Shown one piece after another: positions 9,040-58,163 of a DNA stretch of 64,000 bases (positions within the stretch are counted from its first letter, which is position 1; each line of letters opens with the position of its first letter). The DNA is from Buxus sempervirens. Its lineage: Eukaryota > Streptophyta > Magnoliopsida > Buxales > Buxaceae. A model generated the notes under the pieces. It did not search any database and was not told the origin of the DNA. It saw only the letters and a program-made list of their open reading frames with translations. A program made the position numbers and the translations under genes. Where the stretch lies: NCBI GenBank assembly GCA_947561395.2, contig OX387187.1, positions 20,627,829 to 20,691,828 on the forward strand, given 5' to 3'.

Positions 9040-9360
9040 GTGGCAAACAAGAGGGCTGACCTTTTGTCTGGAGCTGGAGTGGAGTGAACTGAGTTAAGTC
9101 ATGGCATACCCACTGAAAAGATGATTCGAAGTTGTTTATTATAGCATATTTGGTAGTTTTTTAATTGTCATTTTATGTTTCATGCTTATTATTTGTTCAA
9201 GGCTACTACACTATTAGGCAGAAGTGTGTCTTGGTCATTTCTCCATATGCATCTCGTCAACATCAGTGAAAAAAATTCCTTCATTAATCTTTATAATTTT
9301 ATTTGTATATTGTGGGCTATTCTTAGGTTGTAACTCTGTGGCCCTGTTCACTGCAAGCAG

Positions 9361-32391: not shown

Positions 32392-33879
32392 GTTGACCAC
32401 AATAAAATATGCAACGCTTAATCCGAATAATCACAATAAGATATAAGACAACAATGAAATACAATTTGTCCACCTCATGAGACTTATGAAATAGTATACC
32501 AGGAAAAGAGAGTAGACATGTGTCAATATGCTACCTAACCGAATTACGATGGACTAGCCGCCCTGGAGTCTGGCTATTCAACACCAATGGAAGAAACCAA
32601 CCATGAGTTAGCATGTACGGCCCAACAAATCCAGGAGTGCGTAATGTAGCGACTGACCAATCCAGGAGCGGTACCATCCTCGAGATGATGGAATGCCTCA
32701 GACACAGAATTCAAACCCCTTTAATACACATTTCACTTACTAGCTATTCTATGAATCCATATAACTGCTAAGCCCACTCAACAGTGAGAAAACCAACCAG
32801 GGTAATGGACATACTTCTCAATAACACCCACCAAATACAGAACCTTATCTGTATCACCAAATCTACCCATGTGGGAAACAATAAATCAGGCACCAGCCTT
32901 GTCACACCAGTGACTCAAAAACCAAAACAGAATGTACCAAATCATCTGTCCAAAACTCCAGGTTTCAAAGGGCCAATATATCCCGAATGTGTATCGACTC
33001 CATAGATGTACAACATACTTTCATATCACCCAAATACAGGTGTATGAACTCACAAAACCATCCTTGGTTAAAAGTAAATTCTTTTGGAATAATGGAATCA
33101 AGTAAAAGTGCCTCTTTAGAAACATCTACCCAAAATATTTATAAAATTGAATTTTAAACATCCGCCAATGCAAACACTTCCCAAATACCCCAATCTTGAT
33201 GGTACATAGGTTAAATTTGGATAAAAACACTTTCGTAGTGAAAAACTATGTTGAAAAGTTAATTTCCAAAAATCTGACAGACTAGTTGCTAGAGCAAGCA
33301 AAGGCGCTCGATCGGCCTTACAGAATAGGTTAATTCAGGATAGGTTGCTCGATAGGTCGTTTGAGCGACTGTTCTAGCTACAGTTCAATCTGGGTAAAAT
33401 TGCTCTCGGGTTTTGAATAAATACATAGGTCGCTCGAGCGACTGCTCAGGCGGCCCAATACGTGAAAAATTCGTAATTTTATAAAAATTCCTCAACTCAA
33501 TATTCAATGCATCAAAACCATTCTAAAATACTTTATAAACATGCTAGAACAATTCCCAACAATTAAAACATCATAAATAACAAAAACAACGCATCAAAAC
33601 ACCGAATAACCATGTATATCGTCTAAACACGAATTTGGATTTTATGCAAGCGTCAAGGGACTACTTACCTGCTTCTAGGAACTTAAACATTTTCTAAGAG
33701 AACCGAAATATCACTCCTAAGTTTGTTAAACGATCCCAACAAGCCCGATTACGTATGGGTTAAGAAAATCACGTTTTTAGAATCTAGCAATACATCTATC
33801 TCTCCAAAAACAGAACTGTTTATTACTTGCTCTTACCTTAATTTTTGTGCACGAAAATCCTCTCTTTTCCTTCTCTAAG

Positions 33880-36141
33880 TGTGAGACATGGGAAAAAATC
33901 ACCGGAGTGATCATCCCTCCGTCAACACACGGGCTCAACGCAAAAATTGGGAGAGTCGCCACCATTCATGATTTTGGGGTGAGAATGGACACCAAAGAGT
34001 TCAAAATAAGCAAAAATAGCCAAAGAAACATTCTAGGATAAAAATAATCCTACTTAAAAATCAAATCCAGAGATGGGTAAGGGGATTAGATTATGAACGG
34101 GGGAAGGTGTTAGGCACCCCCATTCATCCACACGAAGTGGTTGCCAAGTGTATGTTCATGCAAAAATAAAGTAAGAAAGCTTGCTAAAATCATGAGAAAC
34201 CTTGAAAAAAAGTCAAATGTATGATATTTTCACATGAAGATCCAAATGGATTTTAGATCTTCTATTATGTCAATATCATTTCTGGAACATTAAAAAGACG
34301 GAAATCAAAGCACAAGTTGCTCAAAACCAAGTTAAATCAAATTTTGGGAAGTTTGGTAAAAAGTATGTCATTTGTCTTGAAATCATTCAAATACAATTTT
34401 AAATCAAATCAAACCAAATCCATTTGAAAGATTATAGTAAATAAGGGTCTCATGCAAAATTTCACTTCATTCCGATAAAAAACCTAGGAGTTATGCTCCT
34501 TTGAAGTTGCTGCTGGGGATTTTTAAAAGTGATAAGTGGGCAACTTTGGAAAATTGTCTAGAAAGATCCACAACATAAAAGTCTACGAAATTTGGTGTGA
34601 TTGAAGTTTGTATGGCCATCTTTCCATAGAAACTAGCCTCATACCAAAATCCCTTCGGATGTGCCTTGGGTGGTCTCCCGAATAGGCCCCGAAGATCACA
34701 GATTTACCCAGAAAAATGCAAATGAGCAGTTCTGAGTAAATCGGCTACCAATAATTCAAATGGAATCCAAAAATTATGAAACTAACTGGATTTGAAAATA
34801 GACTCATAAAGGAGTACCCAGAAATAAAAATCACTCGAATCGGACTTAAAACGAACACATGGCGGTCCGTCGAAGTGACAAGTTCTGTACTTGGACCTGA
34901 ACTGTCCACTTAACTTCGACAGAGAAGTGTCAAAAATCGGCTAGATAGAAATTCATGAAATTTGGTGGACATAAACTAGACAGACTCACCTTTCCCATGG
35001 TTCTGGAATCACCCCAAAATTCATCCGGATGATGAAGTTATGGGCGTCCGAAGTAAGGGTACAGGTGCTGTCAAGCTAAGCCACTTTTGAAGAAAATCAA
35101 ATCCGAAAATTGACAAAAAGTGTGTGATTCGTGTGAGATGAATCCAAAACCTTTGAAAAGCATTTTAAAATACTCCAGAATTTGATTGAGGTCATTTATT
35201 TGAGTTTTATCACAATAAATGCAATAAACCCCAAATATGAGCCTATCCCGCCAAAATAGTGATATGTGTGCAAAAGTGAAAAAAACCAAGCAAGATCCAT
35301 GCACATGCATATAGATTCAACAAAATAGGTTCTAGCATAGCCTAGGGTTCCGTTCCATTATCGTTTCCCTCTGTTCTCTTTAAGATAATCAAGGGTACTT
35401 TGAATATGGAACGGTTTACAATCAATCAAAAAGGCCTTATGCTACATAGGTTCTAGCACTAGGGTCAATCCCCAGTCTCGTTTCTCCTAGATCCGCCTTC
35501 ACGTTTTACGGCTAGGGGAGTCTTGAGATACTTTGAGCCGGGGAAGGATTTCCACACATACAAACAAGGCTTTACACTACAGAAAGGTAGAAGAAGAGAT
35601 CTAGATCTAGGAATGTAAAGACAGAAAATAAAAAGAAAAGTTGAGGCTTACCTGAGTGCTGGAGGCGATTCCACAGCGGTTTTCTTCTTCTCTTGGAGTT
35701 CTTCTTTGCGAGAATTCAAAACAAGAGTTCAGTGCCATTTGCTCAAGGAGGAGGCTCCTATTTATAGGCAAAGTCTAAGGTCATTGGTAGACACAACTTA
35801 ATGTCTAGAACCCCTCCAACCTAAACCCTAAGGTTATTTCCGCGATTTCCCCTCATTTAATGAGGGACATGATGGTAAAAGTGAAAAGCTCTCGGAAAAC
35901 CCTAATTTTGAGCAAACTTAAGGTATCCGGTATGTCAGACCGAATAACAAAGGACCTTAAGGTATCCGGTACATGGTACCGGATACACTAAGGCTCACAC
36001 GTATCCGGTATGAGTATCCGGATACGGGGAGGAGCACTTGTATCCGGATACAGGCAAAAGTTTATTTTCCTCAAATTCTGTGCTGGCTTTCCAGGAGATA
36101 ATGATTTTTGATGATTGTTTGTGCAATTTGGGGTGTCTACA
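33880..36141 (-). repeat. 3' LTR of the Tat element
   Basis: 2262 bp; minus-strand ends TGTAGACACC...ATGTCTCACA. Promoter module on the minus strand: GTATCCGG palindromes (about 36055-35925), TATAAATA (35766-35759), then a donor-like CTCAG|GTAAG near 35655. It differs from the 5' LTR by one missing 13-bp palindrome half-unit and two substitutions that I noticed (near 34837 and 35938). Confidence 0.95.
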
Positions 36142-36728: not shown

Positions 36729-36797
36729 GTATCCGGTAAGTGTATCCGGATAATCGAGGGCTTGCGGGTATCCGGCCTGAGTATCCGGATCCTCCAG
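36729..36797. promoter_or_regulatory. GTATCCGG palindrome cluster upstream of gene X
   Basis: Two imperfect dyads, each with 'gtatccgg' and a mirrored 'atccgga(t)' about 8-10 bp apart, just before the TATA box of gene X. Same motif as in the LTRs. Confidence 0.75.
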
Positions 36798-38329: not shown

Positions 38330-41003
38330 ATGGCTAGGAGTTGTTCTCGAGTTAGAGAGGAGGCTGACCCAGCTGATCAGCCCTCCTCTTCGCGGGCTCG
38401 TACGGAGGCGAGTTCCAGCGCCACCTTGTCTGAGCCATTAGATGTCTCCAGGGAGAGTTCTGCTGAGGTAGGTTTTCAAAATTTTTCCTTTCTTTCTTTC
38501 TTCCATTCTCCTTTCCCATACAACCTTCACATCTTTCTCTTGAATTTTAGCCCGTGGTTGCACCGGCTCGGGGTCGAGGCAGAGGCAGAGGCCGGGTTCA
38601 GGATCAGGCCCCTGAGGGCGAGAGAGGCCGTGGCAGAGGCCGAGGCAGAACCAGAGATACGGCTCAGGAGGGGGTTGCTGTAGCTCTTGCAGGAGTTCCT
38701 GAGGAGTTGAGGGCCTCTGTTCAGGATACAGAGCTTCTCCATGGCCTGGATAGCCATCCTTCCATGTGCATCAGGGCGGATGTGCCGCTTCCGTACCATT
38801 CTTCTCATCTGCGCGGTAGCTGGGGCAGATTCAGTGAGTTGGCACAGTCACTTTCTCCGGCACTCAGGCGGGAGTTTGGGAGATGTCATCTGGACCACTT
38901 TCTTAGCATACCATCCTTCAGAGCCGACCGTCCACTCATCTTTGCCATGATGGAGAGGTATTTCCCAGAGACTCAGTCATTCCATCTGCCGGACGTGGAG
39001 CTGGGTATCCGCCCCTCCGATTTTGTGATGATTACGAGCATTCCTCTGACGGGGCGGACCATTGTCTTGGAGCGGCCTTCTGCGGAGGATATGGGACTTC
39101 TCTTGGGATATCAGGCCCTGCCACCTACTGCTTGGGATGGGCGGAGCGGCCGGCTCTCCATTAGCTGGCTGCGGGAGAGTCTGGCTCGTCATTTTGAGAG
39201 GAGGCATGAGACCGTCTCTGTGGAGGATGCAGCCTTTGCACCGATCTTCCGACATGTATTCTTGCTGATGTTGGGGAGCTGCTTCTTCCCGGAGGATACT
39301 ACCGGTGTCAGCCCACTTTTTTTGGATGCCTTGAGAGATTTCCATCAGACCCGCCAGCTAGCATGGGGTCGGCTCATTTATGGGACCATCTTGGCCGGGC
39401 TGTGCCGAGCGGTTCGGGGCTTAGCGTCTCCGAGAGGTGACGGAGTCAGCAGCCGGTTCTTCTGGCAGATTCTACAGGTATTGCATTCATCTGTCTGGTT
39501 TAATTCCTTAGGCTTTATCTTTTCTTGACTGATTTTTCTTTTGCTAGGTGTTCATGTACACCTATATGACCTTCTTCCGCCCCTCCCCGGTTCCTGAGGT
39601 TGCAGATTTCCCTGTGGCCCTGCGATGGTCGGCCCAGGTTCGAGATGCCGATAGGAGCCAGCCTCGCACTGCCCGGGTGCACTTAGACCGTGCCCGCCGA
39701 TCTGATGTAAGTCCTCTATCTTTTTTCTTTTATTTCCTTTCCTGTATCTTGACTGTATCTGACCACTTTGCTTCTTTGCAGCTCATTCTATCCCATCCAG
39801 ATGACGTGGATGTCGGAGTTGCCCGTGAGATGGCAGTACAGGATGCTTTTGAGAGAGATCTCCGACGTCAGCCTTACCAGTGCTTCCTTGGGAGGCTTGG
39901 TAGGGTGATGTACTTGGGAGAGCGCCTGTACTTCCAGCACACTGGCGCACTTCGCATCCCCGTCCCTCCTCCTGCTGTGGGTCCCGATATCCTCCTTCCT
40001 GGCTTTGATGTGGATTACTTCCTGGATGCCGAGGGGCTCACAGTAGCCGGAGATTATGACGAGTGGTTCCAGGGAGTATCTATCGGATGCTTGATGGATC
40101 GACCTACTCGTGCCGGGGTGACAGAGATTGGCGGGATCCGTATCCGGATCCACGAGGACACGGTAAGCCTTGTACTCTTCCCATTTTTATCCTCTTTTCC
40201 TTCCTTATGCATTTCTGACCACGCTTCCGTTCTTGTTGGCAGGTACACGAGCTGAACTCCATTCGGGACCGGTTCGAGAGCCAGCGGGCTACGATCGATG
40301 ATATGATCGCGGAGCACGATGCGGTCGTGGCCCAGCGGGATGCCCGGATCAGGGAGCTGGAGGCCTTAGTTGCTGAGCTCCAGTCTAGACAGGTATCTGG
40401 CCTTCTCATATTTTCATTTCTTTCATTTTCCTGTTTCTGCTATTCTGATGTGCTTGTTTGCCTTGTGCAGGGCTCGGTCCCAGATCAGGATGCCTTTTTT
40501 GAGCATGGTTTCCTCATTCCTGACCCATCTCCTGCTCGGGCTACGGATTCAGCTGCTGATCCTGGTGATGCTCCAGTGATGGTTCCTGAGCCAGAGGAGG
40601 TCCCTGCTGCCGACCCAGTGGATCCGGATCCCATAGTGCCTGCTGGTATGCTTTCCTTAGCTTCTTCTTTTTTATTGATTTCAGTATCCCAATTCCTGAT
40701 TTTTTTTCATTTTGTACAGATATTTCTGATCCTGACCCTTCTTCTGATGCCGGGCCTTCTGGAGCTGCGGGAGCAGAGCCTGCTATGGCTGAGGGTCCAG
40801 TTGAGCCCGTACCTGCTAGGCCAGAGGTTTCCTCCCCAGATTCTGCTCCTGCTCTACCCCCAGACATCGAGGAGTATTGCCTGGAGTATCAGCTTCAGCA
40901 GGTGGTGGGTCGGCATCCTCGTCATGCAGCCGAGCGTATTCTTGCCTACTCTAGGGGCAGAGCGCTTCGAGTGAGAGGTCGTAGGGATGATCCTGCACAG
41001 TAG
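38330..41003 (+). CDS. antisense gene X: seven-exon plant-mobile-domain-like protein
   Basis: Seven exons (38330-38467, 38551-39477, 39548-39706, 39782-40162, 40243-40392, 40471-40645, 40720-41003) join in frame to 737 residues. All six introns are GT-AG and 70-83 nt. Residues 47-82 are an Arg-Gly-rich tract (possible nucleic-acid binding). Residues about 130-410 resemble the aminotransferase-like plant mobile domain (M-M-E-R-Y-F-P-E-T-Q-S-F-H-L-P, then I-P-L-T-G-R-T). Residues about 536-585 form a coiled coil; the tail is Pro/Asp-rich. It lies between pol and the 3' LTR, opposite to pol. The acceptor 'gtgtag' directly before ATG 38330 implies a 5' UTR intron from a donor at 37157. Known PMD proteins (MAIN, MAIL1) act in transposon silencing; the role of this one is unknown. 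Confidence 0.87.
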
Positions 41004-41207: not shown

Positions 41208-41352
41208 CGGTATCTGGTCTGACATACCGGATACATTGATTGGTCTTTGTATCCGGTATGTCATACCGGATACTCGTGCCATCTTTTGTATCCGGTATAC
41301 TTATCCGGATATGCATAAAGCCTTTTGTATCCGGTCTGAGTTACCGGATACG
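41208..41352. promoter_or_regulatory. GTATCCGG palindrome cluster upstream of gene Y
   Basis: Four units. The best (41249-41273) has 12-bp arms GTATCCGGTATG/CATACCGGATAC around a single central base. Others are at 41212-41236, 41288-41312 and 41327-41351. The spacing of 37-39 bp centre to centre is regular. The TATAAAT box of gene Y follows 12 bp after the last unit. Confidence 0.85.
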
Positions 41353-41480
41353 TTAAAAGATGCTATAAATGCAACCAGCCTCGGGATTTGAGCATTTTTT
41401 ACGAGTTTTTGAGTTTAGAAACCCCCTTTTTCGCCTTTTTCTTCCTCCTCTTGAGTTCTAGCTTGCTCCCGTCACATCCA

Positions 41481-43207
41481 ATGGAATCCGGATCATCTTC
41501 TGCCCCGTTATTGTCTGTCCACACTGCCTCCCCTGTAAAACAACCTTTTAGATCAAAACCCCCAAATCTCACCAGGTTCAATCCTGTGGATTCCTTTTAC
41601 ACAAGGTGGGTTAACTCTATGACCCTAGATGAGGAGAGGAGATGGGGTTCTACTAATCTAGGCCATACCCTGCTTATTCCCAAAGTTCCCTTCAGGTGGG
41701 AGATTATAGAGGCCATGATTGGTCATTGGGTTCCTGACCTCAACTTGTTCCGTTTTGGGACCCATGAGATGACCCCAACCATTGAGGAGGTGGAAACCAT
41801 CCTGGGCCTGAGGTTTGATGAGAAGGTGGTGAATCCACCTCTTAGGCCCAGTTACAAGAAGGAAGCTTCTACTTTTTTGGGCATAGGGAAGAAGGACTTG
41901 GGGGATTCTGACACCCTTTTGACCCTATCTAAGGCTTTTTTGACTGAGAAGCTTTTGAGGGGAGAAGATAAGGAGGCCCGATTCAATGCGTTGACCCTGA
42001 TAGTGGTCAACCAGTTGCTTTTCCCACGGGAGGATGACGAGGTGGACTTGGCCTTGATTTCCGTGATATGCCAGGTTAGGGAGCGGGAGAGGTTGGCCCC
42101 TATGATTTTAGCTGGGATATATCAGGCCTTAACCGACTGCTACAATAGGAAGTCGAAACGCTTCCTAGCATGTGCCCAGATCCTGCAGGTAAAAAAAAAA
42201 TTTTTTTCTTTTTCTTTCTTTTTTTTCTTTTTCTCTTGCTTCTTGGATTCCTTTTTGCCTTTTTTGCTCTTTTTTTTTTCTTTTTTTTTTCTATTACAAT
42301 GTGCTGAAATATCTCCCTTCCTTTGCAGCTTTGGCTACTTGATCATTTGAGTCAAATTGAAGAGATCAATCGACACTTCTTCCCGAGTCTGAAAGTTCCA
42401 TTGTTGATGAGCAACAGGGGGTGCCCCGATATTCCAGGGGGCAAACAGGGCTGGTTCACTTTCTTGGGCTCGCTTCAGGATGACCAGGTGAGATGGCCTG
42501 GTACTTATCAGCCTAATGCAGAGACAGTGATTAGCTTCCGTGACCGCAACTTTTTGATCCTAGCGGGCCTGAGACATGCAGTGCTTTATCTTCCTCTGCG
42601 GGTCCTTCGTCAGTTCCGAGCGACCCAGGGGATTATCATCCCATGTGGATATGAGGATCGTCTTGGGCCCCTTTCTATGAAGCTGAATGCCTGGTTGATG
42701 AAGGAGTGGTCCTATGTCCGCTTTATGCATGGTCCAGTCTTCTTAGAAGCCCATGTGAAGGATTATCTCTTCTGGATCAAGGAACAGATACAGACTCAGG
42801 CCCCGGTACCCGAAGATCCTCCTGTAGTCTTGGCTCCCACCTATGAGGACATTCTAGAGTCTGAGCGGGCTTCTCATAAGCGGCTTCAGCAGATATGGGC
42901 ACGGGAGGCCCAGGAGCTCAGGATACAGGGCGCTTATCTGGAGAGGCAGCTTGAGGAGCAGATCTCACGCCGTATTGCCGTGGAAGAAAAGCTGGAGGAG
43001 CAGAGGCAGGCTCGTTGCTTTGAGGTCCGTATGATCCGGCAGAAGTACCAGGATACTTTGGCCAGCCTTAGGAGCATGAGGATCAAGCAGGCCCTTTCAG
43101 ATGAGGTCATTTCCTTCCTGAGTGATCCCGCTGCAGAGGGGGCTTCAGGAGTCATTGCAGCTCAGGCAGCTCGGATTCGGGAGCTTGAGGAGCGGCTAGG
43201 AGACTAG
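41481..43207 (+). CDS. antisense gene Y: DUF7745/PMD-like protein with C-terminal coiled coil
   Basis: Two exons: 41481-42188 and 42329-43207, joined in phase 0 across a 140-nt T-rich GT-AG intron, giving 528 residues. The first ATG after a TATAAAT box (41364-41370) was chosen. Residues about 30-380 resemble the plant DUF7745 domain, related to the plant mobile domain: V-P-F-R-W-E-I-I-E-A-M-I, F-R-F-G-T-H-E-M-T-P-T-I-E-E-V and L-G-L-R-F. Residues about 405-505 are Glu/Arg/Gln-rich and predicted coiled coil (L-E-E-Q-I-S-R-R-I-A-V-E-E-K-L-E-E-Q). It is antisense to the host retrotransposon, convergent with pol (stops 938 nt apart) and tandem with gene X. Four GTATCCGG palindromes lie just upstream. 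The function is unknown; the frame is intact. Confidence 0.85.
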
Positions 43208-44144: not shown

Positions 44145-47100
44145 TCAAGGAAAATACCTTTTTACCGCATTAGAGTTAATGGGCTCAGGAAAATCTGACC
44201 CATCCATTTCTGCTAAGATGAGTGCTCCCCCTGATAGGACTTTCTTGACGACATATGGGCCTTCCCAATTGGGCTTGAACTTACCACGAGGATCCTCCAA
44301 AAATGGTAGAATTTTCTTTAGCACCAGGTTTCCTTCTTGGAAAGTTCTGGGCCTCACTTTCTTATTGTAAGCCCGGGCCATTCTCTTCTGGTACAACTGT
44401 CCATGGCAAAGCGCTTTCAACCGCTTTTCTTCTATCAGGTTAAGTTGATCATGTCTCGATTTGACCCATTCAGCTTCTTCTAGTTCTGCTTCCATGAGCA
44501 CTCGGAATGAGGGGATCTCTACTTCCACGGGCAAGACTGCTTCCATCCCATAGACTAGGGAGTACGGGGTTGCCCCAGTTGAAGTCCGGATCGAGGTTCT
44601 GTAGGCATGTAGAGCAAGTGGCAGCATTTCATGCCAATCCTTGTAGCTCACTACCATCTTCTGAATGATTTTCTTTATATTCTTGTTGGCTGCTTCTACT
44701 GCCCCATTCATCTTTGGCCTGTACGGAGCCGACTTATGGTGGGTGATCTGAAACTGCTCATACATTTTCTTCATGTCCTTGTTCTTAATATTTGAAGCAT
44801 TGTCTGATACTATGGCATTTGGCAGCCCATAGCGACAAATAATGTTGTGCTTCAAAAATTTGATCACATGGTTGCTTGTGATATTTGCATATGATGCTGC
44901 TTCCACCCATTTAGTGAAGTAATCAATCGCCACCAGGATGAATCTGTGCCCGTTCGATGCCTTAGGGGAGATCATGCCAATAACATCTATGCCCCACATA
45001 GAGAAGGGCCAGGGTGATGTCATGTTGTGCAGCTCGCCTGGGGGTGCATGCTTGTTATCTGCATATATCTGGCATTGATGGCACCTCCTGACATGTGTAC
45101 AGCAATCATGCTCCATGGTTGTCCAGTAGTATCCCAGCCTCAGGATCTTCTTAGCCAGCATGTGTCCACTCATATGGGGCCCACAGACTCCTCCATGTAT
45201 AGTCTCAATCAACCTTTCCGATTCAGCCTTGGCAACACATCTTAGCAGAATATCGTTATGCGACCTCTTGTACACATGTCCACCACTTAGTAGAAATTGA
45301 CCAGACAATCTCTGTATTGTCCTCTTTTCAGTAGCAGTGGCATTTTCTTGCAGACTCCGATTATTCAAGAAATTCTTGATATCTTTAAACCATGGTGCTT
45401 CTTCTTCTGGTGCTTCTTCTAGAACGAGACAGTAAGCCGGTTCATCTCTAACCTCAATTTCCAGCGGTCTGATGTCTACTCCTTCTGGTATGCTGACCAT
45501 TGAAGCCAAGGTTGCTAGAGCATCTGCAAACTGATTCTTGGCCCTTGGCATATAGTTGAAGGAAATTCGAGTGAAATTTGTGCTTATTTCTTCCAAATAC
45601 TGGTGATAGGGGATCAATTTATGATCCTTGGTTTTCCACTCACCAGTTGTTTGGAAGATGATAAGACTCGAATCCCCGTATACGTCAAGTTCCTCTACTC
45701 CATGATCCATGGCTGCTTGCAATCCAATTATGCATGCTTCATATTCTGCTATGTTATTGGTGCACTGGAATCTCAGCTTTACTGCAATTGGGATATGTGA
45801 ACCATCTGGTTTAACCAGGACTGCCCCTATTCCGTTCCCATTCATATTGGCGGCCCCATCGAAGAACATCTGCCAAGAACTCTCACTGTCCTCCTCTTCA
45901 GTGTACAGAATTGCCTCATCTGGGAAGTTGGTCTTCAAGGGTTGATATTCTGGCAGAGGATGTGCAGCCAGGTGATCAGCTATGGCTTGACCCTTGATCG
46001 CCTTCTGGGTGATGTATGTGAGATCAAATTCGGACAGTAGCAGTTGCCACTTTGCCGTCGTGCCAGTCAGTGCCGGTTTCTCAAATAAATATTTCAGCGG
46101 GTCCATCCGGGATATCAATAGTGTGGAGTGACTAAGGAAATAATGCCTTAGCCTCTGAGTGGCCCACACTAGAGCACAGCAAGTCTTTTCCAATGGTGAG
46201 TATTTGGCTTCATATTCCGTGAATTTTTTACTCAGATAGTAAATTGCCCTTTCTTTTCTACCAGTCTCATCATGCTGCCCCAAGACACATCCCATCGACG
46301 TTTCCAACACTGACAAGTACAGGATCAGTGGCCTTCCTGGAGTTGGTGGCACTAGTACCGGTGGGTTCAGTAAATACCTCTTTATTGTGTCAAATGCCTG
46401 CTGGCAGTCCTCATTCCAGACCGTCGGGTTATCTTTCCTCAAAAGTTTGAAAATTGGTTCACAGATAGCAGTGAGCTGTGCTATGAACCGGCTTATGTAT
46501 TGAATCCTTCCAAGAAAACCCCTGACCTCCTTCTCAGTTCTGGGTGCTGGCATTTCAATTATGGCCTTGGCTTTTGCCGGGTCAATTTCAATTCCTCTTC
46601 GGCTCACTATAAACCCCAGTAATTTCCCTGATGTAGCCCCAAAGACGCACTTAGCTGGGTTAAGCCGTAAACTGTACTTCCTGAGCCGATCAAACACTTT
46701 CTTCAGATTGATCAAGTGGTCCTCCTCTTTGCATGATTTGGCAATCATATCGTCCACATAGACCTCCATCTCCTTATGGATCATGTCATGAAATAGTGCA
46801 GTCATGGCCCGCTGATATGTTGCCCCGGCATTCTTGAGTCCGAATGGCATGACTGTATAGTGGAATGTGCCCCAAGGTGTGATAAATGCTATTTTCTCTT
46901 GATCTTCCTTAGCCATCTTGATCTGATTATATCCTGAGAAACCATCCATGAAGGAAAACAGGCTATGTACCGCAGTATTATCGACCAGAATGTCGATGTG
47001 TGGAAGCGGAAAATCGTCCTTTGGGCTTGCCCTGTTCAAGTCTCTATAGTCCACGCACATTCTGACTTTCCCGTCTTTCTTTGGTACCGGCACTATGTTT

Positions 47101-47732
47101 GCGAGCCACTCTGGGTACGTAGAGACTGCCAAAAATCCAGCTTGGAACTGTTTGACCACTTCGTCCTCGACCTTCAAGGTCCATTCAGGCTTCAATCTTC
47201 TCAGCTTCTGCTTAATCGGCTTAACCCCTGGCAAAATTGGCAACTTGTGCACCACCATGTCAGTGTCCAACCCCGGCATGTCCCGATATGACCAAGCAAA
47301 CACATCCTTGTAATCTGCCAAGAATTGTGACATTTCATTTTTCTGCACATCAGACAAGCATGACCCGATTTTCACAATTTTTGGGTCCTCTTTGGTCCCA
47401 AGATTTATGGATATGGTCTCCTCAATATTAGGTTGGACCCCCTTTTCATGACGTTCTAATTGGTATTCAATTTCTTTTGGAACGTCTTCTTCTTCGACCT
47501 CAGTCTCTTCTTCGACCCCCATGAGATCAAAGTCGAGCTCAAAGTCGAAGTCATATTCAACCTGGTCCAATTCGGTCTGAGTATATGGTTCATAAGTGGT
47601 TTGGACCTTTTTGAAAAATTTAAATTTTCTAGAAAAAATAGAAAAATCTTTTTGGGTTTTTTGTGGGCCTTCTAAACCTAATTCCCCTGAAGACGAAGGC
47701 CCATTAGAACCTTCGGGGAAATGGCATTCCAC
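44145..47732 (-). CDS. pol: pol: reverse transcriptase, RNase H, archaeal-type RNase H, integrase
   Basis: An open frame of 1195 codons without stops. No ATG opens it (first codon GTG, overlapping the protease stop), so it is probably expressed by -1 frameshift at the A9 run. Domains in order: acidic linker (about 1-180); reverse transcriptase (about 185-370, V-P-V-P-K-K-D-G-K-V-R-M-C-V-D-Y, P-F-G-L-K-N-A, active site Y-V-D-D near 330); gypsy RNase H (about 455-580); archaeal-type RNase H (about 630-760, F-F-D-G-A-A, G-D-S-S-L-I); integrase with a zinc-binding HHCC-like region (C-H-Q-C) and DDE residues in G-I-D-V-I-G, V-S-D-N-A-S-N and N-G-A-V-E-A. It ends V-K-R-Y-F-P. The second RNase H places it in the Tat lineage. 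Confidence 0.95.
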   Translation of the reverse strand: MECHFPEGSNGPSSSGELGLEGPQKTQKDFSIFSRKFKFFKKVQTTYEPYTQTELDQVEYDFDFELDFDLMGVEEETEVEEEDVPKEIEYQLERHEKGVQPNIEETISINLGTKEDPKIVKIGSCLSDVQKNEMSQFLADYKDVFAWSYRDMPGLDTDMVVHKLPILPGVKPIKQKLRRLKPEWTLKVEDEVVKQFQAGFLAVSTYPEWLANIVPVPKKDGKVRMCVDYRDLNRASPKDDFPLPHIDILVDNTAVHSLFSFMDGFSGYNQIKMAKEDQEKIAFITPWGTFHYTVMPFGLKNAGATYQRAMTALFHDMIHKEMEVYVDDMIAKSCKEEDHLINLKKVFDRLRKYSLRLNPAKCVFGATSGKLLGFIVSRRGIEIDPAKAKAIIEMPAPRTEKEVRGFLGRIQYISRFIAQLTAICEPIFKLLRKDNPTVWNEDCQQAFDTIKRYLLNPPVLVPPTPGRPLILYLSVLETSMGCVLGQHDETGRKERAIYYLSKKFTEYEAKYSPLEKTCCALVWATQRLRHYFLSHSTLLISRMDPLKYLFEKPALTGTTAKWQLLLSEFDLTYITQKAIKGQAIADHLAAHPLPEYQPLKTNFPDEAILYTEEEDSESSWQMFFDGAANMNGNGIGAVLVKPDGSHIPIAVKLRFQCTNNIAEYEACIIGLQAAMDHGVEELDVYGDSSLIIFQTTGEWKTKDHKLIPYHQYLEEISTNFTRISFNYMPRAKNQFADALATLASMVSIPEGVDIRPLEIEVRDEPAYCLVLEEAPEEEAPWFKDIKNFLNNRSLQENATATEKRTIQRLSGQFLLSGGHVYKRSHNDILLRCVAKAESERLIETIHGGVCGPHMSGHMLAKKILRLGYYWTTMEHDCCTHVRRCHQCQIYADNKHAPPGELHNMTSPWPFSMWGIDVIGMISPKASNGHRFILVAIDYFTKWVEAASYANITSNHVIKFLKHNIICRYGLPNAIVSDNASNIKNKDMKKMYEQFQITHHKSAPYRPKMNGAVEAANKNIKKIIQKMVVSYKDWHEMLPLALHAYRTSIRTSTGATPYSLVYGMEAVLPVEVEIPSFRVLMEAELEEAEWVKSRHDQLNLIEEKRLKALCHGQLYQKRMARAYNKKVRPRTFQEGNLVLKKILPFLEDPRGKFKPNWEGPYVVKKVLSGGALILAEMDGSDFPEPINSNAVKRYFP

Positions 47733-49258
47733 TATTGGAGTTTTTTTTTGGAAGCCGCGTTAGTTTGCCGAACAAACGTTGCTTCAAAGGTAAGGGGAGT
47801 TTCCTCCCAATTGTTCATTACAAAATTTTGGGGAGCAGGGGAAATAGGGAAAGCCCGCTCCTCAAGCCTAGCATCCGATGCCATCATCACCGGGTGGGTA
47901 CTGCCCTTTTCTGCTACGGGGCTCAGTCCAGAAGTGACCTCCTCTGGAATCTTCATTGCGGCCCAGTCAATGAACGGCAGGTCCATGTCACCGTCAGTCT
48001 TTTCGCCTTCAGTCATGGCGAAGAAGGCCCCAACATCCTCAGAATAATCTGACTGCTGCTCGGGCTGTGGCCCAGGCCCATCTGCTGTTCCCAGTATTGG
48101 AGATGGGTTAAAGGGTTGTAGGGCCGAAACAAAAGGCTTTTGAAATGGGTTGACATTTCGGTATGGGGGTTTGGACTGGTCTATGGGAGGAGAAATTTGG
48201 ATTATATAGGAGGGTTTTGGAAAGTTCACCCTCAGATGCGGGAGTTTTCCTTTGCTTCTGCTCTCCCCTTCTTCGTGCTTCATTCTTCTCCAGCCTCTGG
48301 GCTTGAAGCCCAACCCTACCTTGGGGATCAGTTTCTTAGCCGTGATTGGCTCCACCATCCCCTGCAGATTGATCCCCAGGCCTTTCCCTGGGTGAAAGTG
48401 GTATTTCTCCATCACTTTCTTGACCATTTTTTCTGCAGTGGTCCCCTTTTCCTTCTTTTTATCACACCCCCCAGGTATGTAATTTACCGCCTCAAATTGG
48501 AATGAGTGGAATGCAATCTTGTCGACAGTTAGGTCCACATTGATCAAGGGTACATCAGGTGACACGATGGGCGGCACCAAGTTTTCAGCTAGGACTGTTA
48601 TCACCCTTTGCCCTCTTATGTACTTCACTCTTTGGTGAAGCGTGGATGGTATTGCCCTAGCCGAATGTATCTACGGCCTTCCTAGGAGCAGATTGAAGGC
48701 TGCGGGTATATCCATCACTTCAAATGTGATGTTAAAGATATTCGGCCCAATTGTGACCGGCAGTTCAATCTCCCCTAGGGAGTAGGTGTTGGAGCTATCA
48801 AAAGCCCTTACTATCCGCCCATTTCGTTTGATCCTCGACTGGTCCAGACCCAGCTTGGTAAAAGTGATTAACGGGCAAACGTTTAATGCCGACCCGTTGT
48901 CAATTAGAACCCGTGCAACCATGCAGCCCTTACAAAGCACAGTGATGTGCAAAGGGTCCACATGATAACACCCACCTGGGCTGATCTCACCCTCTGAGAA
49001 ACTTATCACATTATGTGACAAGATTTGACCAACCATTTTACCAAGCTGGTCCGGATCAATAGTCTGGGATACGTGTGCACTCTGTAGTACCCTTAACAAT
49101 GCATCCCTATGCTTTTCAGAATTCAGCAAAAGGCCAAGTATTGAAATCTGGGCCGGGACCTTGTTCAGCTGATCCACAAGATTAAATTCACTTTTCTTTA
49201 TTATTTTTATGAGGTCTGCTGCCTCATTTTCTGCACCCTGGGGGGTGTCTTCTCCCAC
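47732..49258 (-). CDS. pro: aspartic protease frame, interrupted by one amber codon
   Basis: Cleaves the Gag-Pol precursor. It opens in the -1 frame relative to gag. The retropepsin motif V-L-I-D-N-G-S-A-L-N-V sits at about 48910-48880 (DNGS as in Tat/Ogre, instead of DTGS), followed by F-N-L-L-L-G-R-P. At 48673-48671 a TAG stands directly after G-R-P, where relatives usually have Trp. The frame then stays open for another 298 codons (containing a G-patch-like G-x-G-L-G-x-x-x-x-G stretch, about 48375) to TAG at 47734-47732. The downstream half links protease to reverse transcriptase. An A9 run at 47749-47741 precedes the final stop and could allow a -1 shift into pol. Confidence 0.85.
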
Positions 49259-51414
49259 TTTATTTTTCCCTTCTGTTTTCTTTTTTCATCATTTTCTTTT
49301 TTTTCTTTCTCTACTTCTGTCTCTTTTTCTTTCTCTTCACCCCCTGCACATCTCCCTGACCTCGTCATGAGGTTCACCTCCTCCTGGTTCGGGTTTCTAA
49401 CCGCTGGAACCGTAGCCGTGATTCCCTCGCTGTAGTTCCATGGTACAGCGGCCTCTGAATAGGCTAATTTAGGGATATCAACCACTAGTGGCTGGAGTTT
49501 GGACCGGGATGTATGGGCCGGTTTAGGGATAGTATGGGCTGGCTGCACATTTACAACCAAGGGTTGAAGTTTGGATTTGGTGGGGACAGAAGAAGTGATG
49601 GAAGCAGTGGTGGGGTCAAGATTGATGACCAGTGGAGCCTTAGACGGCTTGGATGGGGAATAAGTGGGTGGACTGCAATTGAAGACCAATGGAGGCCTTG
49701 CAGTATTTATCTGGGCCATCAGAAAAGAGACTCGGTTTAAGGAGGAGCTTATGTCCTCAGCAGCAAGATTATTTTTTTGGGAGACCATGTTGATCTCCTC
49801 TTCGTTCTCCTCTTGGAAAAATCGGACCTGGACTGTAGTCCCCACAGGTGCTATAAGCTGAGATGGGTCAAAGGCCCTTCTCGCGGTGGATATGGCAGTG
49901 ATGGAGTTGGATGGGCCTGCCCCATTGTGGTAAGGCAGAGGGTTCTGCCCAATATCATTCCCGGACGGGGCCGGTGCAGCAGTGTTGAACACCAAGGCCT
50001 TCTGGTCCAACAAATCCTGGACTGCATGCTTCAATACCCAGCAGTTATCAGTAGAATGCCCCGGTGCACCCATGTGGAAATCACAGGTGACCGATGTGTC
50101 AAAATTTCTCCCCTTCGGGGCATTTGGGTTAGGCTCCTTCAGAGTCAAGTATTCCCCTTTTAGCAGGGTTGGCAGTAGTTGGGACAGCGATATGGGTAGA
50201 GGGGTGAAAACCCGGTTCTTCCTTGCTGCGAACCAGGCATCCCGCTCCTCCTTAGAAAAAGTCCTCCTTGTGTTAGCTGGCACAGAGGGAGGGAAGTTGA
50301 CATTCAGCGGGGTCTGGTACGACTGCTGGGCCTGTTGGGGTGCCGAGATGTTGACGTGAAGTGGCTTCTTGGCTGGAGGAGCCTGGACTAGGTTCACCTC
50401 CCCTTCCTTTCGGGCCCCTGTCTTTTTAAATCCGGCTCCCTTCTTTTGGGCCATGGAGGCCGAGGAATCAGACTGCCCAGTCAGGGTAGAGTAGTCTATC
50501 AGCCTTCCTGACCTGACCCCTTCCTCGATCCGGTCCGCCACCTGTACCAGGGCTGCAAAGTTGGTGGTGATCTGACCCACCAGATGGTTGTAAAAGGGCT
50601 GCCCCAGTGTGCCCATAAATGTGGAGATCATCTCCGGCTCTTGCATAGGTGGCCTGACCTGGGAGGCGGCCTCTCTCCACCTCTTGGCGTACTGCCGTAC
50701 CGGTTCATCTTTCCCCTTGGTCATCCTCATCATGTCGTACCGGTCTGGCACGATCTCCGAGTTGAACTTGTACTGGTCCAAGAAAGCATCGGCCAAGTCC
50801 TTCCACCTTCTAATCCTTCCATGGTCCACTGTAGCGAACCACCGAAGGGCTGACCCGGTTAGACTCCTTTGAAAGAGTTGGATCAGTATGCCATCATCCC
50901 GGCCAAACTGGCACAGGGCCCCGCAGTATAATTTGAGATGGCTCAATGGGCAGCCCGTGCCATCAAATTTATCGAAGTCTGGGCACCTGAACTTAGCCGG
51001 TAGACAGACGTCCGGGTACATGCACAGGTCCTCGAAGGTGGTGCCTGCATGGCTGCCTCCCCCCTTCACTTCCTTCAGCTCTGCCTGGATCCTCTCTATC
51101 CTGAGCAGCATTTTCTTTTCCATCTAATCTCGGGCCTTTTCTTTTTCCAGCTCTTTCTCAGACTCCACTGTATTTTCCCTGATCAGAATGGGCTCAGGGA
51201 CTGGTTCAGAAATGGGCTGAGCCGGAGGCGGTATGTAGGCCTGGGGTGGTGGTGCCTGATGGGAAGTAGATGCCTGGTTCTGGGCTTGGGCCTGTTGGGC
51301 CTGAGCCGCCAGTAGGTCCCCCAGCATCTTGGCCAGACCGGCCACTTGCTCCTACAGTTGAGTAAAGTCTTGAGCGGGGACAGTAGCTTGGGCTTGGTTC
51401 TCTTCAGTATTCAT
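49207..51414 (-). CDS. gag: gag polyprotein, interrupted by two amber codons
   Basis: Structural capsid protein of the retrotransposon, forming cytoplasmic particles that package its RNA. The likely start ATG is at 51414-51412. The same frame meets TAG at 51354-51352 (codon 21) and TAG at 51126-51124, the latter directly followed by ATG (51123). The N-terminal part is Gln/Ala/Pro-rich, then Glu/Lys-rich coiled-coil-like. The uninterrupted 638-codon part has the retrotransposon gag domain in its first third (C-P-D-F-D-K-F-D-G-T, then A-L-R-W-F, W-K-D-L-A-D-A-F, G-T-L-G-Q-P-F-Y). It ends in a charged Lys/Glu tail. A single CX5HX4HX4CW-like motif sits near codon 350. It overlaps the protease frame by 52 nt. 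Confidence 0.88.
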
Positions 51415-51619: not shown

Positions 51620-52915
51620 TGTTTTGTGTTGGAATATTCTGGGGCTTCCAAGGGTCCCAAAAAAATTTTTTTTTGATTTGATTGATAAAAATAACCAACC
51701 AGGGTTTTCATGGAATATTCTAGGGCTTCCAAGGGTCCCAATTTTTTGATTTTTTTTTGATTTGATTGATAAAAATAACCAACCAAGGTTTTCATGGAAT
51801 ATTCTAGGGCTTCCAAGGGTCCCAATTTTTTGATTTTTTTGATTTGATTGATAAAAATAACCAACCAAGGTTTTCATGGAATATTCTAGGGCTTCCAAGG
51901 GTCCCAATTTTTTTGATTTTTTTGATTTGATTGATAAAAATAACCAACCAAGGTTTTCATGGAATATTCTAGGGCTTCCAAGGGTCCCAATTTTTTTGAT
52001 TTTTTTTATTTGATTGATAAAAATAACCAACCAAGGTTTTCATGGAATATTCTAGGGCTTCCAAGGGTCCCAATTTTTTGATTTTTTTGATTTGATTGAT
52101 AAAAATAACCAACCAAGGTTTTCATGGAATATTCTAGGGCTTCCAAGGGTCCCAATTTTTTTGATTTTTTTGATTTGATTGATAAAAATAACCAACCAAG
52201 GTTTTCATGGAATATTCTAGGGCTTCCAAGGGTCCCAATTTTTTTGATTTTTTTTTATTTGATTGATAAAAATAACCAACCAAGGTTTTCATGGAATATT
52301 CTAGGGCTTCCAAGGGTCCCAATTTTTTTGATTTTTTTGATTTGATTGATAAAAATAACCAACCAAGGTTTTCATGGAATATTCTAGGGCTTCCAAGGGT
52401 CCCAATTTTTTGATTTTTTTGATTTGATTGATAAAAATAACCAACCAAGGTTTTCATGGAATATTCTAGGGCTTCCAAGGGTCCCAATTTTTTGATTTTT
52501 TTGATTTGATTGATAAAAATAACCAACCAAGGGTGTCTTGGAATATTCTAGGGCTTCCAAGTATCCCACAAATGTTTTGATTTGATTGATAAAAATAACC
52601 AACCAAAGGTGTCTTGGAATGTTCTAGGGCTTCCAAGTATCCCACAAATGTTTTGATTTGATTGATAAAAATAACCAACCAAAGGTGTCTTGGAATATTC
52701 TAGGGCTTCCAAGTATCCCACAAATGTTTTGATTTGATTGATAAAAATAACCAACCAAAGGTGTCTTGGAATATTCTAGGGCTTCCAAGTATCCCACAAA
52801 TGTTTTGATTTGATTGATAAAAATAACCAACCAAAGGTTTCTTGGAATATTCTAGGGCTTCCAAGTTTCCCACAAATGTTTTGATTTGATTGATAAAAAT
52901 AACCAACCAAAGGTT
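51620..52915. repeat. two-block tandem repeat array in the leader
   Basis: Block 1 (about 51640-52530): about ten units of 82-86 bp, each with 'ataaccaaccaaggttttc', 'atggaatattctagggcttc' and 'caagggtcccaa' plus a variable T-run. Block 2 (about 52530-52906): five units of exactly 76 bp with 'aaaggtgtcttggaat', 'tatcccacaaatgttttg'. Both share 'gattgataaaaataaccaacca'. The blocks diverge only in the spacer. ORFs crossing the array are by-products of the repeat. Confidence 0.95.
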
Positions 52916-53238
52916 TCTTTTTTTTTTTATTCTTTTTTTTTATTTTTGCTGAATTTTCTCAGTTTTCAAGTTCAAAAGTTTGACTGACACATGTTTGAGT
53001 TGAGTTGGTGTCAAAAAATATGACACCTTGGTTTCCTCTTTGATTTTCAAGCTTAGGTTAAATCCTGAAAGAATATTTTATTTTATTTTTTTTTGTTTTT
53101 CTTTTTTTTGTATTTTTTTTTTGTATTTTTGGGAACATTTCTTATGTTCATTTCGGGGTGCCTAAGGATTATCCACAGTGTTTTAGGCATTTTATTTTGA
53201 AAATTTGGGCTGAAAAGCCAATTTGTGCATTTTTGAAT

Positions 53239-53380
53239 GTATCCGGTATAATATACCGGATAAGAATATGCCTTATTGTATCTGGTCAACCTAACCGGAT
53301 ATCCGCATATGTCTTTGTATCCGGAAATATGTACCGGATATGATTAGAGCTGTTATTAACCGGCCTGAGTTGCCGGTTAT
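53239..53380. promoter_or_regulatory. GTATCCGG palindrome cluster in the leader
   Basis: Three units of the GTATCCGG/CCGGATA type (first at 53239-53263), spaced about 38-40 bp, followed by a variant with AACCGGC..GCCGGTT arms (53359-53380). No adjacent TATA box or gene was recognised on either strand. Confidence 0.75.
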
Positions 53381-54764: not shown

Positions 54765-57039
54765 TGTGAGACATGGGAAAAAATCACCGGAGTGATCATC
54801 CCTCCGTCAACACACGGGCTCAACGCAAAAATTGGGAGAGTCGCCACCATTCATGATTTTGGGGTGAGAATGGACACCAAAGAGTTCAAAATAAGCAAAA
54901 ATAGCCAAAGAAACATTCTAGGATAAAAATAATCCTACTTAAAAATCAAATCCAGAGATGGGTAAGGGGATTAGATTATGAACGGGGGAAGGTGTTAGGC
55001 ACCCCCATTCATCCACACGAAGTGGTTGCCAAGTGTATGTTCATGCAAAAATAAAGTAAGAAAGCTTGCTAAAATCATGAGAAACCTTGAAAAAAAGTCA
55101 AATGTATGATATTTTCACATGAAGATCCAAATGGATTTTAGATCTTCTATTATGTCAATATCATTTCTGGAACATTAAAAAGACGGAAATCAAAGCACAA
55201 GTTGCTCAAAACCAAGTTAAATCAAATTTTGGGAAGTTTGGTAAAAAGTATGTCATTTGTCTTGAAATCATTCAAATACAATTTTAAATCAAATCAAACC
55301 AAATCCATTTGAAAGATTATAGTAAATAAGGGTCTCATGCAAAATTTCACTTCATTCCGATAAAAAACCTAGGAGTTATGCTCCTTTGAAGTTGCTGCTG
55401 GGGATTTTTAAAAGTGATAAGTGGGCAACTTTGGAAAATTGTCTAGAAAGATCCACAACATAAAAGTCTACGAAATTTGGTGTGATTGAAGTTTGTATGG
55501 CCATCTTTCCATAGAAACTAGCCTCATACCAAAATCCCTTCGGATGTGCCTTGGGTGGTCTCCCGAATAGGCCCCGAAGATCACAGATTTACCCAGAAAA
55601 ATGCAAATGAGCAGTTCTGAGTAAATCGGCTACCAATAATTCAAATGGAATCCAAAAATTATGAAACTAACTGGATTTGAAAATAGACTCATAAAGGAGT
55701 ACCCAGAAATAAAAATCACTCGAATCAGACTTAAAACGAACACATGGCGGTCCGTCGAAGTGACAAGTTCTGTACTTGGACCTGAACTGTCCACTTAACT
55801 TCGACAGAGAAGTGTCAAAAATCGGCTAGATAGAAATTCATGAAATTTGGTGGACATAAACTAGACAGACTCACCTTTCCCATGGTTCTGGAATCACCCC
55901 AAAATTCATCCGGATGATGAAGTTATGGGCGTCCGAAGTAAGGGTACAGGTGCTGTCAAGCTAAGCCACTTTTGAAGAAAATCAAATCCGAAAATTGACA
56001 AAAAGTGTGTGATTCGTGTGAGATGAATCCAAAACCTTTGAAAAGCATTTTAAAATACTCCAGAATTTGATTGAGGTCATTTATTTGAGTTTTATCACAA
56101 TAAATGCAATAAACCCCAAATATGAGCCTATCCCGCCAAAATAGTGATATGTGTGCAAAAGTGAAAAAAACCAAGCAAGATCCATGCACATGCATATAGA
56201 TTCAACAAAATAGGTTCTAGCATAGCCTAGGGTTCCGTTCCATTATCGTTTCCCTCTGTTCTCTTTAAGATAATCAAGGGTACTTTGAATATGGAACGGT
56301 TTACAATCAATCAAAAAGGCCTTATGCTACATAGGTTCTAGCACTAGGGTCAATCCCCAGTCTCGTTTCTCCTAGATCCGCCTTCACGTTTTACGGCTAG
56401 GGGAGTCTTGAGATACTTTGAGCCGGGGAAGGATTTCCACACATACAAACAAGGCTTTACACTACAGAAAGGTAGAAGAAGAGATCTAGATCTAGGAATG
56501 TAAAGACAGAAAATAAAAAGAAAAGTTGAGGCTTACCTGAGTGCTGGAGGCGATTCCACAGCGGTTTTCTTCTTCTCTTGGAGTTCTTCTTTGCGAGAAT
56601 TCAAAACAAGAGTTCAGTGCCATTTGCTCAAGGAGGAGGCTCCTATTTATAGGCAAAGTCTAAGGTCATTGGTAGACACAACTTAATGTCTAGAACCCCT
56701 CCAACCTAAACCCTAAGGTTATTTCCGCGATTTCCCCTCATTTAATGAGGGACATGATGGTAAAAGTGAAAAGCTCTCGGAAAACCCTAATTTTGAGCAA
56801 ACTTAAGGTATCCGGTATGTCAGACCGGATAACAAAGGACCTTAAGGTATCCGGTACATGGTACCGGATACACTAAGGCTCACACGTATCCGGTATGAGT
56901 ATCCGGATACGGGGAGGAGCACTTGTATCCGGATTGAGTATCCGGATACAGGCAAAAGTTTATTTTCCTCAAATTCTGTGCTGGCTTTCCAGGAGATAAT
57001 GATTTTTGATGATTGTTTGTGCAATTTGGGGTGTCTACA
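54765..57039 (-). repeat. 5' LTR of the Tat element
   Basis: 2275 bp, colinear with 33880-36141. It contains four palindromic units at 56808-56949 upstream of TATAAATA (56651-56644) and a donor-like CAG|GTAAG at about 56540. The donor could be used to splice out much of the leader to an acceptor just upstream of gag ('cttaactcag' on the minus strand near 51490); this is inference. Confidence 0.95.
56808..56949. promoter_or_regulatory. GTATCCGG palindrome cluster in the 5' LTR
   Basis: Four units at 56808-56833, 56847-56871 (11-bp perfect arms, 3-base loop), 56886-56910 and 56925-56949, period 39 bp, about 160-300 bp upstream of the LTR TATA box on the minus strand. The same cluster in the 3' LTR (35925-36055) lacks one 13-bp half-unit. 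Confidence 0.9.
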
Positions 57040-58163
57040 CTAAGACAGCTCCAACAGGTTGGTTAGGGTTTGGTTTAGTCACAAGGAAGCAAAGAAAAAA
57101 ACAAGAGGAACACTAGAAGTAACGTGCGGCTGTTCTCTATGTTGTGTTTTTAAACTCCACGTAAATCACTCCATGCACTACTAGGTATTTTATTATTTTA
57201 AAGATTTTTACAATTAAGCCTTTAACCTTTACCCAACTAAACCCTTGGGTCAACCTACTCTCATTGGATTCGACCAACTCTTTTTATTCTCCTTGTTTAT
57301 TCCTCAGTTAATTCTTACTAATACAAACCATAGCACAACTAATTAGTATATTAATATTATACCTAGCCAATAATCATGAACTCACCTTATATAGGCTCTC
57401 CTGTCATCTCCGGTTCATCTTGAACTCCTCCTGGTTGAACCAAAATCTCATCTCTTGCATATTATTAACCAATTAGTCTATTGATTTATTTATTACTAAA
57501 ATTTGGGATTTTACAAACCGACCCGAGTTAAACGGGTTTGGGTTGACCCGTATATTAATTGGGTTGGGGTTTCCCCAACCTGCCAATAATCGGGTCAACC
57601 CGATTGAAAAAAAGCGCCAAAAAGTGTTTCGTCCCGACCCGATTAACCCCAACCCGCCCCGAACCCGACCAATTAACCCCCAACCCTATTCTAATCATAT
57701 TTTTTGAAAAATAAAAAATAATAAACGGGTTGGCGGGTTGGGGTTTTTCCAACCCGCCATAATCGAGTCCAACCCGAACTGATTATCCCCAACCCAATTA
57801 TGACCCAACCCGAACCCGAACCAACCCGACCCGTTGCCACCTCTACCCTATATATAGTCATCCTCTTTGCCGCCCACTTCCTTCTTTAAACTCTCTTGTG
57901 ATCAGCTACTATGCTACTCCACCATATCCCCTACATATCCAATGCCAATCCACTAGGTAAATCACATGATCTAATGCCTAATTTATAATTAAATTTTTTT
58001 TTATAATAATTCCCTTACCACAATTGATAATTCTTCTCCATTTAATTTCTGAAAATTCCCAAATTAACCTTATTCTTCATTTCCCTGAAATTTCCACCAA
58101 TAATTCAATTATTAATCATAAAACCAAATTTTAAATCATTATTTAAAATTTTGGGATTTTACA

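Follow-up and report, generated by a model that had tools for sequence, protein, structure and literature searches.

The plant mobile domain (PMD) has been reported in 57% of the Ogre elements covered by one survey (PMC6317226), the PMD-A1/A2 clades are described as confined to Gypsy elements (PMC5418596), and in one survey of long terminal repeat (LTR) elements the PMD was the most frequent non-canonical domain (PMC9289625). Additional antisense open reading frames (ORFs) are described in Grande (gene23), RIRE2 and Retand, with transcription of its own reported for the Grande ORF (PMC7264820, PMC11963269), and the first of these two papers calls for looking for antisense and spliced transcripts. 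Neither a PMD in Ogre nor an antisense ORF in a Tat element is, in other words, new to the literature. Outside the retrotransposons, the VANC protein of Arabidopsis VANDAL elements binds short motifs in noncoding tandem repeats, with loss of methylation (PMC5735166, PMC10398659), and the host proteins MAIN, MAIL1 and PP7L interact and silence transposable elements (PMC7156037). Here we analyze a 64,000-nucleotide stretch of Buxus sempervirens DNA (contig OX387187.1, positions 20,627,829 to 20,691,828; hereafter the window) that contains a 23,160-bp LTR retrotransposon, Tat/Ogre-like by its apparent layout, with two adjoining antisense PMD genes, gene A (seven exons) and gene B (two exons), and arrays of the short motif TATCCGG. 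Like the Ogre/Tat elements with PMD ORFs, this locus places a PMD inside a large Ty3/gypsy element with dual RNase H; in contrast to what is found here, the antisense multi-intron structure, the selection, the adjacent second gene and the arrays go undescribed in the available portions of those reports (PMC6317226, PMC5418596, PMC9289625).

Gene A spans positions 38330-41003 on the plus strand, between pol and the 3′ LTR and antisense to gag-pol (44145-51123, minus strand). Its exons (38330-38467, 38551-39477, 39548-39706, 39782-40162, 40243-40392, 40471-40645 and 40720-41003) join into a frame of exactly 737 codons that starts at ATG and ends at TAG. The six introns are all GT-AG, 70-83 nt long and 44-54% T, with introns 1-5 in phase 0 and intron 6 in phase 1. 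An earlier note on this DNA, made from the sequence alone, had proposed this stop-free seven-exon frame on the strand opposite gag-pol, and both the frame and its orientation were reproduced. Chance was assessed with a path search in which six introns at most were allowed, none weaker than the weakest real one, using approximate splice-site weights. Across 200 dinucleotide shuffles of 38330-41003 the longest path was 187 codons (0/200 reached 737), and the opposite strand of the same stretch gave 122 codons. A chance ORF as the source of gene A is ruled out by this shuffle control. The real stretch itself yields an 803-codon path, which makes the 737-codon model a good path but not the unique optimum. 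Among 68 tests on other intervals and strands, a single one exceeded 737 (745 codons, at an intronless 840-aa ORF), and the next, 638 codons, fell at gag.

Selection on gene A was estimated from its copies in the host genome. A DNA search with exon 2 scored the best 40 of 1189 candidates, the window included, at 93-100% identity; gene A and the 39 other places form the alignment set. Over exons 2-5 the median pairwise divergence was 0.212 at synonymous sites (dS) and 0.019 at nonsynonymous sites (dN), with a median dN/dS of 0.088 (775 of 780 pairs, those with dS above 0.02). The pooled ratio was also 0.088, with a codon bootstrap range of 0.069-0.110 (38 sequences, without the truncated L025 and the duplicate L056). 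The dN/dS among copies had been set beforehand as a test, and the value obtained is far from 1. As controls, shifted forward frames gave 1.52 and 2.88, and reverse frames gave 1.64, 0.17 and 3.84. The 0.17 is taken as the frame that shares third positions with the true frame, since the sense (gag-pol) strand frames of the gene A stretch hold 23-31 stops each. By distance, the 17 closest pairs have a ratio of 0.25 and distant ones 0.09, a fall expected if copies decay after insertion and replicating lineages are constrained. By part, it is 0.04-0.08 in the PMD, 0.21 in an RG-rich tract, and 0.13, 0.14 and 0.12 in exons 1, 4 and 5. The tail of protein A, encoded by exons 6-7 (40471-41003, plus strand), evolves fast (dN/dS 0.48 and 0.53) and is indel-rich, unlike the remainder.

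The splice sites of gene A are kept along with its reading frame. Across the 39 other copies, the canonical dinucleotide is present at 458 of 464 scored splice sites, a count that excludes four gapped sites of L025 (451/456 without L025), and 143 of 429 GT/AG dinucleotides inside the introns are changed. Exons 1-5 (1755 nt) contain 10 distinct indels, six of which are multiples of three and four of which are frameshifts in one copy each; introns 1-6 (460 nt) contain 107, with 25 multiples of three, and the tail exons 6-7 (459 nt) contain 83, with 46 multiples of three. Allowing up to two mismatches, the exon 2-intron 2 boundary was found at 249 + 243 places in the genome, and the reversed control at 0. 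Taken together, the kept splice sites and the dN/dS of 0.088 mean that gene A is an intact, splice-dependent antisense PMD protein gene under purifying selection, and not debris. It is highly improbable that we are looking instead at a chance reading, a decayed gene or a non-coding antisense transcript only. Decayed copies do occur: only some aligned copies are open from ATG to stop, others having early stops or frameshifts, and 22 of 128 exon-2 protein matches listed contain a stop (106/128 do not), in a list that holds the best 128 of 3284 candidates ranked by protein score and is therefore biased to intact copies. Such a reading is nonetheless contradicted by the dN/dS, the splice-site conservation, the shuffles and the stops that crowd the sense frames. 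A pseudogene and a purely non-coding antisense transcript were both rejected on the selection, splice-site and indel data.

The orientation of gene A bears directly on how its introns survive. Introns persist through reverse transcription because the sense RNA carries only the complements of their splice sites, and, as the earlier note had reasoned, those of gene A are indeed kept in the orientation in which sense splicing would leave them in place. In the scheme that we propose, gene A would be transcribed antisense to the genomic RNA, its seven exons would be spliced and translated into a PMD protein, and its introns would pass through retrotransposition unspliced on the sense RNA. In this way a multi-intron gene has come through repeated cycles of retrotransposition while purifying selection acted on it, and its antisense placement is the apparent reason. 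This contrasts with the view of a December 2025 review which, in its available text, treats Ogre and EVADE as exceptions among plant LTR retrotransposons, which it holds to be generally without introns (PMC12786077). For the antisense ORFs of Grande, RIRE2 and Retand, the word intron has 0 occurrences in PMC7264820 and PMC11963269. Our literature search did not find a six-intron antisense gene in such an element, its selection or these arrays, most papers having been judged by title or the start of the abstract, which is no proof of novelty.

Protein A matches PF10536 (PMD) over residues 166-407 at 64.0 bits (E 1.8e-17; curated cut-off 34.9), and the match spans the exon 2-3 junction at residue 355. 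The RG-rich tract lies at about residues 53-80. Both features had been read in the earlier note and are borne out, the PMD-like domain by a sequence profile match above cut-off. The coiled coil claimed alongside them was not confirmed: the heptad score of 1.35 compares with a shuffled 95th percentile of 1.40, and coiled-coil Pfam matches fall below cut-off. Coiled coils were rejected for proteins A and B alike, their simple heptad scores being no higher than those of shuffles. The structure model of exon 2 is poor (predicted local distance difference test, pLDDT, 53.9; predicted template modelling score, pTM, 0.48), and Foldseek returned 92 matches at E <= 10 with none at E <= 0.001. Residues 90-560 gave no match at E <= 0.001 among 7998 candidates scored from the protein collection, and a search of solved structures by sequence with gene A gave just three matches at E = 1, which are not credible. 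The ORFs of Retand carry Transposase_28 (PF04195), whereas neither gene A nor gene B matches this family at E <= 10.

Gene B, which is absent from the earlier note, adjoins gene A on the same strand (41481-43207, plus strand) and encodes 528 aa in two exons (41481-42188 and 42329-43207) separated by a GT-AG intron of 140 nt. Its spliced frame matches PF24924 (DUF7745) at 2.8e-25 and PF10536 at 1.3e-19 (71.1 bits, cut-off 34.9). Upstream of it lies a TATAAAT box (41364-41370, plus strand), a putative promoter element that is also present in the three copies fetched. In all three of these copies (3/3) gene B stands opposite the integrase, its intron starts with GT and ends with AG, and the proteins are 95-98% identical; in an alignment-based reading L062 is without a stop, L063 has a stop at codon 244 and L064 one at codon 72. 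Pairing with gene A extends beyond the window: among 40 gene B matches listed, compared with 136 listed gene A places, at least 15 (window included) lie 1.8-4.0 kb from a gene A place, all on the same strand.

Genes A and B share more than a domain. Three introns, the second of gene A, the only one of gene B and that of L002, a MULE-type PMD gene of this genome, occupy the same LQ| position in phase 0, which suggests an old shared intron. This common position bears on the kinship of retrotransposon and host-type PMD genes. Both the host MAIN/MAIL1 proteins (PMD-C) and the MULE-borne PMDs have the same Pfam domain as gene A; the MULE-borne genes differ from it in their gene context and at the level of sequence, with only about 30% identity (about 29-31% for the MULE-type PMDs compared). 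The MULE label refers to a zinc-knuckle-like motif seen in L001, which we take to be that of MuDR transposases. PMD genes of another, Tat-like family of the same genome (L009-L011) read through the LQ| intron position. This family has two PMD genes on one strand, and in L009 and L010, where an integrase motif falls within the stretch, the integrase is on the strand opposite the PMD genes. A short repeat with a period of about 80 bp was seen in L011.

The two side-by-side PMD proteins recall the MAIN/MAIL1 pair. Since MAIN binds MAIL1 and both bind PP7L, a partnership of A and B is plausible by analogy. The same resemblance supports the idea that the carried proteins are decoys that join or titrate the host MAIN/MAIL1/PP7L silencing module, with no involvement of the TATCCGG arrays. 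The earlier note had suggested that the carried copy could be an anti-silencing factor or a decoy, a role that stays an inference. The reported interaction and silencing role of these host proteins (PMC7156037) and the strong constraint on the PMD part agree with this idea, which we nevertheless judge unlikely, as it leaves the constrained arrays described below unexplained and must accommodate the low identity of gene A to the MULE-type PMDs. The arrays and gene B suggest a mechanism more specific than a MAIN/MAIL1 decoy.

The palindromic half-site TATCCGG/CCGGATA occurs 32 times in the 64-kb window, 31 times in the element. With one LTR counted, the element has 27 sites, where 100 shuffles average 1.04 and never exceed 5, and the 40.8 kb outside it have 1. 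The sites form arrays in the LTR (35924-36047, twin 56809-56945), between the 3′ LTR and gene A (36730-36788, seen in the window copy), upstream of gene B before the TATA box (41227-41350), and in the leader from the 5′ LTR to gag (53240-53340). The single half-site of the element off the arrays is at 40141, within a gene A exon. In the arrays, half-sites are spaced as inverted pairs 9 nt apart or as direct pairs 6 nt apart. The exact 25-bp palindrome was found at 53 places in the genome, with 0 for the reversed control, and at least 19 of 50 listed places are beside a gene A or gene B match (compared with 20 hand-picked places).

The arrays are constrained, with cores better kept than spacers. 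Upstream of gene B, differences among four copies amount to 9/354 pair-comparisons in cores, 61/481 in spacers and 49/1042 in flanks, where the pairs are not independent. Between the LTR array of the window and that of a nested LTR in L009, 0/62 core positions and 10/78 spacer positions differ (Fisher p 0.0024). The distribution of the half-sites also bears on the idea that A and B are late-step accessory proteins (roles in nuclear import, integration or chromatin choice have been suggested for the Grande and Retand ORFs) and that a host transcription factor acts on the arrays. Arrays and proteins could be unconnected, as this account supposes; a general host factor accounts less well than a dedicated binder for the concentration of half-sites in the element (27, one LTR counted, against 1 outside), and we regard the account as improbable.

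What this locus has in common with VANC and VANDAL is a transposon-encoded protein together with one short motif arrayed in noncoding parts of the same element (here 27 sites, with 1.04 expected). The two systems differ in that VANDAL elements are DNA transposons and in that VANC has DUF1985/DUF287, whereas genes A and B have PMD/DUF7745. Motif binding and demethylation belong to the VANC work and are conjectural for the element in the window. With this precedent, activation or anti-silencing is favoured by analogy, and the odds that A and/or B act as a VANC-like, element-encoded regulator or anti-silencer on the TATCCGG arrays are, in our estimate, somewhat short of even. In such a scheme, gene A and gene B, both of the PMD superfamily, would provide a nuclear regulator encoded by the element. 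Binding of A and/or B to the TATCCGG palindromes, which lie in the LTR, in the leader and ahead of each antisense gene, would keep the element promoters open against host silencing, and active. The complete reading, to which we assign a probability of about 0.35, is that the two-gene antisense PMD module is a sequence-specific anti-silencing or self-activating system working on TATCCGG arrays at promoters, that antisense placement permits long-term carriage of its many introns, and that PMD and VANC (DUF1985) share ancestry. PMD is common in Ogre, and the arrays provide a concrete target sequence for the question of what role it has in Gypsy elements.

The same arrays would also serve for a self-limiting repressor, in which A and/or B hold down element transcription as a form of copy-number control. 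Their position ahead of the putative repressor genes themselves is as in negative autoregulation. We consider this decidedly unlikely: an abundant family, whose exon 2-intron 2 boundary is kept at no fewer than 492 places when two mismatches are tolerated, and a young copy in the window do not look like products of tight self-restraint.

Several observations weigh against the VANC-like reading. The binder of the arrays could be a host factor, and the conservation of the arrays was measured in two LTR sequences and four copies of gene B. The TATCCGG array is absent from L010 and L011, members of the second Tat-like family, which likewise has a pair of antisense PMD genes, and an apparently independent array in L009 was rejected, since it sits in a nested LTR that belongs to the family of the window element and is about 93% identical. 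Neither gene A nor gene B matches DUF1985 at E <= 10. The link to this domain comes from the MULE-type L002 (1405-2046), at E 1.9e-05 and 25.1 bits, under the curated cut-off of 35.1; below-cut-off matches to DUF1985 were obtained for 2 of 14 aligned PMD pieces. A link by descent between the PMD and VANC-domain (DUF1985) families is possible on these profile scores and, if true, would join two separate stories of plant transposons meeting silencing.

The retrotransposon itself is bounded by a 3′ LTR (left copy, 33880-36141, minus strand), preceded by the target duplication CTAAG at 33875-33879, and by a 5′ LTR (right copy, 54765-57039, minus strand), followed by CTAAG at 57040-57044. The LTRs are 99.3% identical, with 3 substitutions and a single gap in 2278 aligned columns, which, with the 5-bp duplication on both sides, agrees with the young element of the earlier note. 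At 1.3e-8 substitutions per site per year, this divergence corresponds to an age of ~50 thousand years. On the minus strand are a gag ORF of 638 aa (49207-51123; PF03732, 1.8e-11) and a pol ORF of 1195 aa (44145-47732), in which Pfam profiles identify reverse transcriptase, two RNase H domains (PF17919/PF17917 at residues 439-569, PF13456 at 624-742) and integrase. With LTRs and target duplication, gag-pol and a second RNase H domain in pol, the element is classed by its domains as a Tat/Ogre-like LTR retrotransposon: the two RNase H domains give the Tat layout, and the size and PMD content are Ogre-like.

A candidate primer binding site is seen beside the 5′ LTR. An ORF of 298 aa with a G-patch domain (47732-48628, minus strand; PF01585, 1.6e-06) sits between the protease region and reverse transcriptase. 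In this copy the protease-region frame, which differs from the gag frame, has a TAG stop at 48671-48673 (minus strand), so gag-pol of the window copy may be impaired, with both antisense genes open. Tandem repeats of 83 and 76 bp lie at 51625-52919, inside the element and upstream of the gag ORF. Outside the element, the intronless 840-aa ORF (9224-11746, plus strand) contains replication factor A domains and zinc knuckles and is RPA-like.
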